A stretch of 37,850 nucleotides of DNA, taken from the NCBI GenBank assembly GCA_946554325.1, contig CAMNSB010000006.1, positions 1-37,850 on the forward strand, in the 5' to 3' direction. Position numbers and translations under genes: made by a program. This stretch comes from an uncultured Mycoplasmatota bacterium (GTDB taxonomy: Bacteria > Bacillota_I > Bacilli_A > RF39 > UBA660). The notes under the pieces are model-generated. The model had not been told where the DNA came from, did no database searches, and was given only the letters and a program-made list of their open reading frames with translations. This document shows, in pieces, positions 20,839 to 25,348 of this stretch (its first letter is position 1; the number at the start of each line of letters is the position of its first letter).

Positions 20839-22224
20839 TTAAAACTTCATTTTATCTTCAATATAGGCTTTTATTTCTTCTACTTTTAATGTAATCTGTT
20901 TCATTGTATCACGATCTCTTATTGTAACAGTTCCATTTGTTAGTGTTTCGTCATCTACTGTAATTGCAAAAGGAGTTCCTATGGCATCTGCTCTTCTATA
21001 GCGTTTTCCGATGGATGCTGCTTCATCATAGCTTATCATAAAATATTTGCTTAGTTCTTTATAGATTTCTTCTGCTTTTTCGCTATGAAGTTTTTTATTT
21101 AGAGGAAGTATTACTGCTTTATATGGTGCTAGGGCTGGATGGAAATGCATTACTTCTCTTGTATCCTCTCCTTCTAATTTTTCTTCTTCATAAGAATCGC
21201 AAAGAACTGTTAAAACTAGTCTATCTACCCCCACAGATGGTTCAATTACATAGGGAATGTATTTACTATTATCTTCTGGATCTAAGTATTCTTGAGATAC
21301 GCCAGAGTATTTTTGATGTTGTGATAAATCATAATCTGTACGAGAAGCAATTCCCCATAATTCACCCCAACCAAATGGGAACTTATATTCAATATCAGTT
21401 GTTGCATTACTGTAGTGAGATAATTCTTCTTTTTTATGATTACGAAGTCTTAGAGACTCATCCTTTATACCAAGGGATAGTAGGAAGTTATGACAATACT
21501 TTTTATAATACTCATGCCACTCTAGTTCTGTTCCTGGTTTACAGAAAAACTCTAACTCCATTTGTTCAAATTCACGGACACGGAAGATGAAGTTACCTGG
21601 AGTAATTTCATTACGAAAACTCTTTCCTACTTGTGCAATACCAAATGGTACTTTTAGTCTCATACTTCTTTGTACATTTAAGAAATCTGCAAAAATACCT
21701 TGAGCAGTTTCAGGTCTTAAATAGATTGTGCTTTTATTATCTTCTGTTACTCCTTGGAATGTTTTAAACATTAGATTGAATTTCCTAATATCTGTGAAGT
21801 TTTCTTCTCCACACTTAGGACACTTAATATGGTGTTCTTTGATGTATGAGATTAATTCTTCATTATTCATACATCCTGCTTCTACATCTGGGAATGCTTC
21901 TTCAATTAGTTTATCAGCACGATGTCTTGTTTTGCATTCTTTACAGTCAATTAGTGGGTCTGTAAATGTTGCTAAGTGTCCACTTGCCTCCCAAGTTTTT
22001 GGATTCATTAAAATGGCTGAATCTAGACCTACATTGTTTTTGTCTTCTTGGATGAATTTTTGCCACCAAGCTTTCTTGATATTATTTTTTAGTTCTGCTC
22101 CTACTGGACCGTAATCCCAGGTGTTGGCAAGGCCTCCATAAATTTCACTTCCTTGAAAAATAAGTCCATATTGTTTGCAGTATGCTACTAACTTTTCCAT
22201 TGTTAAATCATTCATTCTTTCCAC
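20839..22224 (-). CDS. glyS: Glycine--tRNA ligase (single-chain, eukaryal/archaeal-like)
   Basis: [64 protein letters not shown]. Confidence 0.95.
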
Positions 22225-22753
22225 TCTCCTTTATTTTTTCTATGATTTCCCCTTGGTTATTACTAATCAGGATATATTCTCCTAAATTCTTATCTAAAAA
22301 TCCCTCTTGATAGAGTTTATACATACTTTCTAACATGGGACTAAAGAAAAAGTCTACGTTATAGAGAATGATTTCTTTTCCTTTCTTACTTTTTAATTCT
22401 TCTAGACAAGAAAATAGTTCACTGTAGGTTCCAATCCCTCCAGGTAAGAATAATAATACATCACTTTTTTCGTAAATTTTCTCGAGTCTTGTCATGGATG
22501 AAGAAGTTATGATTTCTTCATCGCAAGGGACTTTTTCGAAATCGGACTTATAGGCAATGGGTGCCACGCCGATAATTTTTTTATTGTGTTTTTTAAAAAT
22601 ATCATAGGTTTTGCCCATTAGACCATAACTATATGCTCCAAAAACTAAATTAGTGTTTTTAAGTCTTGCTATTTTTTCTAGTAATTGTTGGCAAGATGTT
22701 CCATATTTATCTAATACTTCATCTCTTGCAGATGTTGCTACAAATATATTCAT
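22208..22753 (-). CDS. LOG/TIGR00730-like family protein (Rossmann, PGGIGT motif)
   Basis: [46 protein letters not shown]. Confidence 0.8.
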
Positions 22754-22783
22754 CTTTTTCTCTCCTCCTTTCTAAAATAAAAA

Positions 22784-22902
22784 CTTCTAGAATAAGTTAT
22801 AAGGACGAGTATACCCGCGGTTCCACCTTACTTATTCCAGAAGAATCAGCTTTTTCTTATACTGCTAGAGGATTCCAACCCTCGTCATCGCAACATCAAT
22901 AT
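22784..22902 (-). ncRNA. T-box leader (transcriptional attenuator) upstream of LOG-glyS
   Basis: Conserved AAGGTGGAACCGCGGG...CGTCCTT; terminator stem CTTCTGGAATAAGT/ACTTATTCTAGAAG followed by TTTTTATTTT; GlyRS in the downstream operon. Confidence 0.9.
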
Positions 22903-22908
22903 AGATTG

Positions 22909-22937
22909 ATTTTAATATTTTTTTTACTTCTTGTCAA
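22909..22937 (-). promoter_or_regulatory. SigmaA-type promoter for the T-box operon (TTGACA-17-TAAAAT)
   Basis: TTGACA 22937-22932, TAAAAT 22914-22909, 17-nt spacer. Confidence 0.75.
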
Positions 22938-22943
22938 TTACTT

Positions 22944-22987
22944 TTTACCATAACGACGATTAAACTTTACCATAACGATGATTAAAC
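22944..22987 (-). repeat. 22-bp perfectly adjacent tandem duplication at the 3' end of the TPR-like gene
   Basis: TTTACCATAACGACGATTAAAC / TTTACCATAACGATGATTAAAC (plus-strand reading), one mismatch. Confidence 0.85.
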
Positions 22988-24501
22988 TTCTCAACTTGGC
23001 TTTCTCTTCTCATTACTTTTACTTTCTCTTTTTCTTTTTGATTTAATAGTTTTTCATAATCATTTGCTTCTTTTGAATTATCACATGGGTACATCGTTAA
23101 AATATCAAAAGAGTTTGGTAATGTTACTACTTTAAAATAGTCTACAGGCATAGCAAACCTAGTATATCCAACTTCTTTTAGATAAAAGTTATACTGGTTC
23201 AATAAAGGATTATTAGCTTTGCATAGGTGACATGAGGGAAGTATTCTTCCTAATTTTTCATAAATGTCCTCGATATTTTCTTCTGATTTAAAATAACTTT
23301 TGTTATGTCCTTCTAGATGTAGTTTGATGTGAGATAGTGCTTTTTCTTTACTATAATTTTTTGCTTGACCTATACTATAAAACTCTCCACTTATTTCTGA
23401 AAGTCTTCCTGTTTTTGTATAAATATAGTTCCTAGCTTGATCCATTCTTTTACTATTTGAAACTTCTTCATTTGGAATGTTTGCTATTTCTTCTAGAGCT
23501 TTTTGATATTCTTTCATGTGAATATGAACGATAATTCTATCTTTTATACCATAATTATCACTATTTAGATATTGTTCTAAAAAGTGGAATCCTTCTTCTT
23601 GATATTCTGTATTTTCTACTAATGAAATATATTTTTTTATGGCATTCATTTGTTCTGGATACTTTTTAATGTATGACTCTAGAGATAGTCTAGCAAGAGT
23701 TTTTTCCTCATGCACTAACATTTCATGCACTGTTTTAAATTCTCTTTCTTGTACATTTGTTTTTTTTAATAATTTCTCATAATTATTTACAAATACATTG
23801 TGTTTTAAATCACTTGGTACCATCGTTAAAATTTCTTTTGAGTTTGGTGGTGTAATGACGATTAAATAATCAACATTTTCTTTTTTATACTGTCCTATTT
23901 GTGGGATGCGAAAATAATATTTTCTTAAAAAGTCACAGGTAATTACAGGGGTTGCATTTTCTAAAACAAGTGAAATATTATGGAATAATTCTTCTATGCT
24001 TATATTTTTAGAAAAACTGATACAGGGATTTTTCTCAATGTATTCTATTGCCTTTTTTTCATCGTAGAAAGCAAACTGCTGAACATAATAATTACTTAAT
24101 TCTATTTCACTACATATATTTAGTTTTGCCCTACAATAGGATTTCGCTTTTTCGATGTTATTGGTTGTCGATGGCATTGTAGCAAATTCTTCTAAAGCTT
24201 TCTCATATTCTTCTATTAGCATGTAGCTATAGGCTTTTTCTCTTCTAATATGTACTGGATTATCATTACTTTGTGCTAGTATTTCTAAGGCTTCTTCTGG
24301 TCTTTCTAATTGTCTTAATATTCCTGAATACTCTTTTATTCCATAACTATTGCCTGGATATTTTTCTAAATATTCTTCTAGTGCTTTTATTGCTAAAGGA
24401 TAATTCCCATGAATGATTAGTCCCGTAATTCCTCGAAACTCTGAAATTTTGTTTATTTCTTTTGTTCTTCTTTTTTTACCGAAATCATAAGTTCCCATCA
24501 T
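22960..24501 (-). CDS. TPR-like repeat protein, two-module paralog
   Basis: PLAIKALEEYLEKYPGNSYGIKEYSGILRQLERPEEALEIL and two copies of an F/KEILTM.P...NDYEKLL module. Confidence 0.7.
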   Translation of the reverse strand: MMGTYDFGKKRRTKEINKISEFRGITGLIIHGNYPLAIKALEEYLEKYPGNSYGIKEYSGILRQLERPEEALEILAQSNDNPVHIRREKAYSYMLIEEYEKALEEFATMPSTTNNIEKAKSYCRAKLNICSEIELSNYYVQQFAFYDEKKAIEYIEKNPCISFSKNISIEELFHNISLVLENATPVITCDFLRKYYFRIPQIGQYKKENVDYLIVITPPNSKEILTMVPSDLKHNVFVNNYEKLLKKTNVQEREFKTVHEMLVHEEKTLARLSLESYIKKYPEQMNAIKKYISLVENTEYQEEGFHFLEQYLNSDNYGIKDRIIVHIHMKEYQKALEEIANIPNEEVSNSKRMDQARNYIYTKTGRLSEISGEFYSIGQAKNYSKEKALSHIKLHLEGHNKSYFKSEENIEDIYEKLGRILPSCHLCKANNPLLNQYNFYLKEVGYTRFAMPVDYFKVVTLPNSFDILTMYPCDNSKEANDYEKLLNQKEKEKVKVMRRESQVEKFNHRYGKV

Positions 24502-24520: not shown

Positions 24521-25348
24521 TTATTTATGATACCGCTGATTAAATTTTTCGATTTGGCTTTTTCTTTCTATTTTCTTTGTTAGTCTAGGTTCTTCTTGTT
24601 TTGAGAGGAGTCCTTCATAATCATTGATGACTACATTTCTTTGATATGTGGTAGGACAGATAGATAGAATATCAAAAGTGGTTGGAAATACGACTACTGT
24701 TACATGGTTTATGTTTTCATTTTCGGCAGTTGTTGCAACATCTTTTAGATGAAATATATATTTTCTCATTAAGTTTCCTGTTAATGTCTGTTCTGCGTCA
24801 GGTAGTACTTTTTGCATATTATAGTATAAGTTTTCAATATCTACATTTTCTTCAAAATAAGCTTCCTTTTTTGGATCTGTATATTGTTTGATATATTCTA
24901 TCGCTCTATTTTCATCATATGAGATAAATTGATTGGTAGTATAACTTTTTGATAATTCGCGAAAAGCCCCTAGTTTTGCTTTGCAAAAGGATTGAGCTTG
25001 TTCCATATTATCATCTAGCCATGTCGCACGATTTATTTCTGCTAATGCTTTTTCATATTCTTCCATATAGATATAGCAATAAGCCTTTTCTCTTATGGTA
25101 AAGATTTTTTCTTCTTCTATTTGTGATAAATATTCTAATGCTTTCAAGGAGTTTCCTTGCTGTCTTAGAATCGATGCATATTCTTTTATGGCATAACTAT
25201 TTCTAGGGTATTTTTCTAAATACTCTTCTAATGCTGATTGAGCTAGTTTCATGTTTCCTCTTTGAATTAGACGAATAATTCCTTGAAACTCTTCTTTTTT
25301 CTTAATTGCTTTTGTTTTTTTGTTTCCATTTATATCCAGTCTTTTCAT
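24521..25348 (-). CDS. TPR-like repeat protein, one-module paralog
   Basis: KLAQSALEEYLEKYPRNSYAIKEYASILRQQGNSLKALEYL; strongly similar to the N-terminus of the neighbouring ORF. Confidence 0.7.
   Translation of the reverse strand: MKRLDINGNKKTKAIKKKEEFQGIIRLIQRGNMKLAQSALEEYLEKYPRNSYAIKEYASILRQQGNSLKALEYLSQIEEEKIFTIREKAYCYIYMEEYEKALAEINRATWLDDNMEQAQSFCKAKLGAFRELSKSYTTNQFISYDENRAIEYIKQYTDPKKEAYFEENVDIENLYYNMQKVLPDAEQTLTGNLMRKYIFHLKDVATTAENENINHVTVVVFPTTFDILSICPTTYQRNVVINDYEGLLSKQEEPRLTKKIERKSQIEKFNQRYHK

Follow-up and report, generated by a model that had tools for sequence, protein, structure and literature searches.

A very probable glycine T-box riboswitch without IDTM or Stem II upstream of glyS in one Bacilli-like family

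Introduction

Four classes of T-box are listed in the literature (PMC10482949). Members of Class II are specific for glycine, their Stem I is long and carries IDTM, and they lack Stem II; in Class III, Stem I is short, the specifier sits in its apical loop, and Stem II is required (PMC10482949). The formation of stable complexes has been tied to IDTM in transcriptional T-boxes and to Stem II in the forms with short Stem I (PMC7583486, PMC10482949). In published structural work, codon–anticodon pairing is reinforced through IDTM, which contacts the tRNA elbow, through Stem II, or through both, and fast transcriptional switches are generally IDTM-dependent. In the classical T-box, helix A1 is sheared when the terminator forms (PMC7583486). 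Short forms were sought for the TBDB with a second model in Actinobacteria and among truncated-Stem-I matches of the main model (PMC7778990).

Here, a leader located upstream of glyS is described in a stretch of 37,850 nucleotides (the window) of an uncultured Mycoplasmatota bacterium. It is very likely a transcriptional, glycine-specific T-box riboswitch in which both IDTM and Stem II are missing. Its anatomy, codon identity, covariation, promoter, and gene context are shown by sequence comparison; that it binds tRNA, senses whether the tRNA is charged, and switches in the direction proposed is inferred, without experiment.

The leader and its genomic context

The leader precedes a LOG-family gene, the first gene of the operon, and glyS, which lies downstream and overlaps the LOG gene end. 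The features are as follows, all on the minus strand.

22902-22774, minus: leader, upstream of the LOG-family gene and glyS
22937-22932, minus: -35 element TTGACA (sequence; arrangement shared by relatives)
22914-22909, minus: -10 element TAAAAT, 17-nt spacer from -35 (sequence and promoter-score test)
22859..22896, minus: ultrashort Stem I, about 38 nt, with basal helix, K-turn-like internal loop, and apical hairpin (fold and covariation)
22896-22890 / 22865-22859, minus: Stem I basal helix AUGUUGC / GCAGUAU (sequence, fold)
22885..22889, minus: K-turn 5' strand GAUGA, with 3' partner UA at 22867-22866
22868..22883, minus: apical helix GAGG/CCUC (strands 22883-22880 / 22871-22868, which co-vary) with loop GUUGGAAU
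22874..22876, minus: putative specifier triplet GGA (Gly) in the Stem I apical loop
22847..22858, minus: A-rich linker in the place of Stem II, ending with a purine string before Stem III
22834..22846, minus: Stem III, AUUCU-UCU-GGAAU (near-invariant in relatives, 99% of cells paired)
22829-22816, minus: T-box sequence AAGGUGGAACCGCG (sequence)
22801..22829, minus: antiterminator A1 (AAGG/CCUU) and A2 (GCGGG/CUCGU) (Rfam 3'-half alignment; two-sided changes in A1 and A2)
22825-22819, minus: 7-nt T-box bulge UGGAACC within the antiterminator
22830..22843, minus: terminator 5' arm CUUCUGGAAUAAGU, overlapping the Stem III loop and 3' strand
22784..22797, minus: terminator 3' arm ACUUAUUCUAGAAG, co-varying with the 5' arm
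22774..22783, minus: U-run UUUUUAUUUU (sequence)
22208..22753, minus: LOG-family gene (ORF; Pfam PF03641, E 7e-18)
20839..22224, minus: glyS, single-chain (dimeric-type) glycyl-tRNA synthetase (ORF; PF00587 and PF03129)

The near-consensus promoter TTGACA-17-TAAAAT (22937-22909) lies directly 5' of the Stem I hairpin. An earlier note on this stretch had claimed this promoter, with a start near 22902, and a Stem I made of AUGUUGC/GCAGUAU and GAGG/CCUC at 22896-22859. Both claims held, the latter by sequence, fold, and covariation in relatives, while the start near 22902 remains a prediction inferred from the promoter. The upstream TPR-repeat gene ends at 22960 (ORF), about 60 nt before the hairpin, which leaves too little space for a long Stem I. 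The stretch between recO and the leader encodes two neighbouring TPR-like proteins that resemble each other, at 22960-24501 and 24521-25348.

The promoter arrangement is shared by relatives. Over 99 aligned leaders, the mean promoter score was 10.36 of 12, compared with 8.4 ± 0.07 for shuffled sequences; where a promoter is clear, 13-30 nt separate the end of the -10 element from GAUGA in nearly every leader, and the length from the predicted start to the U-run is 107-131 nt (median 118). A clear promoter was also found 12-25 nt 5' of the GAUGA motif in most of 16 short leaders collected independently through GlyRS (see below). In the window (22208-22753) and in about 20 relatives (e.g., L081, L084, L103, L109, L117, L138, L153), the T-box is separated from glyS by a LOG-family (PF03641) gene. 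Because of this recurrence, co-regulation of the LOG gene with the glycyl-tRNA synthetase is likely, for a reason that is unknown.

Conservation within family f1

GlyRS was searched in 60 relatives and the leaders upstream were then read directly. Through the protein alone, 16 short glyS leaders of the same family (f1) were found, as against one long form; since these 16 share the architecture, the short leader is not a chance arrangement. Among 37 inspected f1 genomes, including that of the window, the short leader is present in 29; Stem I is long in one (G003), one lacks such a GlyRS, and in the other six no T-box was recognised before glyS.

A covariance model, R1, was built from nine short leaders and run on 388 genomes of the family, 193 of the order, 296 of the class, and 388 of the phylum. 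In the order sample, 131 of 193 genomes match at E <= 1e-9, nearly all with the short form, the long form of G003 just passing. The class sample gave 28 matches in 296 genomes, all from f1 (none in about 258 genomes outside it), and the phylum sample gave 13 in 388, again all from f1, out of roughly 17 f1 genomes (none in about 371 outside). At the sensitivity of this search, the short leader is thus confined to one Bacilli-like family. GlyRS is present in 109 of the 110 fetched loci, sometimes after a LOG gene; in the remaining locus LOG is present and glyS probably lies beyond the edge. Two genome bins, G143 (L135/L136) and G144 (L090/L217), carry two short glyS leaders each, every one with its own GlyRS, which may reflect either two glyS genes or mixed bins.

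In the alignment of 99 leaders, 92.4% of cells pair and 14 of 22 pairs show changes on both sides. Cells with two-sided changes number 178, compared with 44 ± 7 after shuffling and at most 28 in slid controls, and the base pairs of Stem I are among those that covary. These figures lean in favour of the structure, as the alignment was fitted to it and relatedness was not removed. MAFFT alone misaligned the variable apical loop, and therefore the apical helix was tested by permuting its two strands among 88 distinct leaders; it averages 3.92 bp, against 3.20 ± 0.10 for permuted strands, with none of 2000 permutations as high.

At the Rfam gathering threshold, no match was found in the leader of the window. 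At an E-value threshold, RF00230 matched with 35.8 bits (E 2e-06), below the cut-off of 93 bits. The support came from the 3' half only, and the Stem I placement was discarded, as the promoter region had been used for Stem I. A SNORD15 match (E 8.6) was rejected as chance. The same genome contains 11 other T-boxes scoring 80-136 bits, which indicates that the lineage uses ordinary T-boxes and that the glyS leader is the outlier. When 20 relatives were scanned with RF00230, 18 scored 34-49 bits and two were unmatched; none reached the cut-off. Since the model was built on forms with long Stem I, the sub-threshold score marks divergence and not exclusion from T-boxes.

Stem I and the glycine specifier

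In all 99 aligned leaders, Stem I measures 32-36 nt and stops at the specifier, and none of the 99 has the long, IDTM-bearing form. The linker between Stem I and Stem III is 11-17 nt in every leader, too short for a Stem II with its S-turn and IIA/B pseudoknot, which is absent throughout the set. Given these lengths and that of the whole leader, there is no space for either Stem II or IDTM, and in this respect the leader is odder than the earlier note had stated.

Of the 99 leaders, 88 carry GGA and 11 carry GGC in the loop; the base before the triplet is U in all, and the base after it is A in 98, so that the purine after the specifier, one membership test for T-boxes, is present. Weaker-scoring leaders have GGU (L214) or GGG (L215, L217). 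R1 was trained on leaders bearing UGGA, by which the set of 99 is biased towards this motif; the set of 16 found through GlyRS is free of this bias and independent of the model, and its triplet is GGA in 15 and GGC in one. As the triplet varies only at its third base, stays within the glycine codons, and stands before GlyRS, it is inferred by sequence comparison to be a glycine specifier; no tRNA-binding data are available. The tRNA-Gly(GCC) of the window's genome ends in U-CCA (U73), complementary to UGGA. The tRNA-Gly(UCC) was not found in this genome; nor was tRNA-Pro, which indicates that the tRNA set is incomplete. Both tRNA-Gly(UCC) and tRNA-Gly(GCC) isoacceptors are present in a single-contig relative.

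The K-turn strand GAUGA is found in 90 of 99 leaders, and its 3' dinucleotide is GA in 68, UA in 17, and CA in 13. From these sequences alone, a K-turn is inferred for most leaders of the family; its formation in the window's own copy is less certain because the dinucleotide there is UA and not GA. Taken by itself, Stem I has little stability (-4 to -10 kcal/mol), and in several relatives it is not recovered by free-energy folding.

Antiterminator and terminator

The T-box sequence and the 7-nt bulge of the UGGN-ACC type meet the test of membership in the superfamily. A hairpin followed by a U-run, the latter 10-20 nt past the antiterminator (the end of the model), is found in 99 of 99 leaders, and a Shine-Dalgarno-like GGAGG lies beyond the hairpin. 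In the predicted terminator, the Stem III loop and 3' strand together with the following linker are paired with the downstream arm, and A1 and A2 remain intact within the terminator loop in 98 of 99 predicted folds. The exclusivity of terminator and helix A1, belonging to the canonical transcriptional T-box platform, is not met in these 98 folds. For the window's leader, the terminator is predicted at -23.2 kcal/mol and Stem III plus antiterminator at -6.3. Over the aligned leaders, the duplex of the terminator arms has -12.1 kcal/mol, compared with -9.27 ± 0.16 for permuted arms. Because one terminator arm includes the 3' half of Stem III and the other lies past the antiterminator, which stays intact, it is inferred from the predicted folds that Stem III, and not A1, is the probable point of competition.

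Among the 11 ordinary T-boxes of the window's genome, at least five (L003, L005, L006, L007, L009) are likewise predicted to have a terminator that uses Stem III sequence and encloses a largely intact antiterminator. As far as predicted folds can tell, the layout is not unique to the short T-box, and it could be a habit of the lineage.

The earlier note had placed a candidate glycine specifier GGA in the hairpin loop and a transcriptional terminator/antiterminator in the 3' half. The former is supported, with tRNA binding still inferred; the latter held, and is refined here to a terminator enclosing the antiterminator and competing with Stem III. Its contrast with translational ileS T-boxes, in which short Stem I is chiefly found, matches the literature (PMC10482949). 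The central claim, an ultrashort Stem I in a transcriptional T-box, is supported by the promoter just upstream in nearly all relatives, and the case is more than a one-off across the f1 genomes. Two outcomes set beforehand as refuting, a normal Stem I upstream and inconsistent covariation, were looked for by comparison and not found.

Proposed mechanism

It is proposed that the anticodon of tRNA-Gly would pair with GGA or GGC in the loop of the short (~34-nt) Stem I, which lies very near the RNA's 5' end, and that the K-turn would bend Stem I back over the short linker toward the antiterminator. The UCCA end of uncharged tRNA-Gly would then pair with UGGA in the antiterminator bulge and lock Stem III, A1, and A2 as a unit. 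With Stem III locked, its 3' half would be unavailable to the terminator, which depends on it; termination would be blocked and the LOG-glyS operon would be transcribed. With charged tRNA-Gly, the downstream arm would invade Stem III, the terminator would close around the antiterminator, and transcription would stop. As both IDTM and Stem II, to which published work ties stable complexes, are absent, the affinity for tRNA would have to come from elsewhere; this is an inference without binding data.

If this reading is correct, then a widespread natural leader without IDTM and Stem II makes the published IDTM/Stem II rule directly testable. It also offers a very small sensor of tRNA charging for structural work, kinetics, and engineering, and an example of a switch whose antiterminator stays intact while the terminator encloses it. 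In addition, an entire branch of regulators that sense tRNA escapes the Rfam model when its cut-off is applied.

Alternative explanations

The leader might be an ordinary Class II glycine T-box with a long Stem I further upstream and a fortuitous annotated promoter, and such a glyS T-box does exist in G003 of the same family. This is very unlikely. The upstream gene ends too close to the hairpin; wherever a promoter is clear, the -10 element almost always stands a short distance before GAUGA; GAUGA and GAGC, which form the two K-turn strands in the long leader, sit immediately on either side of the short hairpin; and Rfam finds a Stem I only if the promoter region is counted as part of it. Short Stem I and apical specifier are typical of the short translational T-boxes of Actinobacteria (PMC10482949), but a T-box of that type is all but excluded here by the hairpin and U-run shortly past the antiterminator in every leader and by the position of GGAGG beyond the hairpin and not within it.

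The poor Rfam score could also point to a decaying relic that no longer binds tRNA and in which only the terminator works, and the six of 37 inspected genomes without a recognised T-box before glyS show that loss is possible. A relic is nevertheless very improbable, as the leader is kept, with covariation, in many genera of the family and its triplet, unlike in relics, varies only at the third base. Less easily dismissed, although still unlikely, is a T-box acting mainly via the 3' discriminator and UCCA end, with the Stem I loop weak or accessory and helped by a protein (e.g., a K-turn-binding L7Ae homologue). The lack of IDTM and Stem II, the weak Stem I, and the K-turn kept in most leaders speak for it, and K-turn proteins may support T-boxes (PMC7583486); however, codon identity is strictly kept, which argues that anticodon reading matters. 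The preferred reading remains a transcriptional T-box in which the glycine codon of the short Stem I would be read.

Relation to known T-boxes

The closest relative is the long glyS T-box of G003 (L016), in which a full distal Stem I with IDTM-like motifs is aligned by Rfam. It shares with the short leaders a near-identical Stem III, antiterminator, and terminator layout, the same K-turn strands, and the GGA specifier, whereas the distal Stem I is missing in the short leaders. Loss of distal Stem I by an internal deletion would be the most economical scenario, but the GlyRS tree lacks the support needed to say what came first: G003 falls among short-form genomes with weak support, and retention is not separated from regain.

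Like Class II T-boxes of the Bacillus subtilis glyQS type, the f1 leader is glycine-specific, precedes a glycyl-tRNA synthetase, and has a transcriptional terminator, a single-stranded linker without Stem II, a K-turn at the base of Stem I, and UGGA for U73. It differs in a Stem I of only 32-36 nt that ends at the specifier and lacks both the distal stem and the IDTM that contacts the tRNA elbow, and in a terminator that encloses the antiterminator. With the Class III ileS T-boxes of Nocardia and Mycobacterium, it shares short Stem I, the apical-loop specifier, and the lack of IDTM. In contrast to them, it has neither Stem II nor the IIA/B pseudoknot, its amino acid is glycine and not isoleucine, it ends in a transcription terminator instead of sequestering a ribosome site, and it is found outside Actinobacteria.

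The short leader passes the sequence tests of a T-box and fits none of the four classes, because it combines the short Stem I of Class III with the absence of the Stem II which that class needs, and the long IDTM-bearing Stem I of Class II is missing. No report of a short transcriptional glycine form was found in the open-access literature searched. We consider the leader a real and new variant, its novelty being judged from open-access reviews without comparison with TBDB entries. A bolder reading, likely in our opinion, is that of a fifth T-box architecture, transcriptional and specific for glycine, with a length of about 118 nt between start and U-run, without IDTM and Stem II, in which Stem III competes with the terminator in place of A1.
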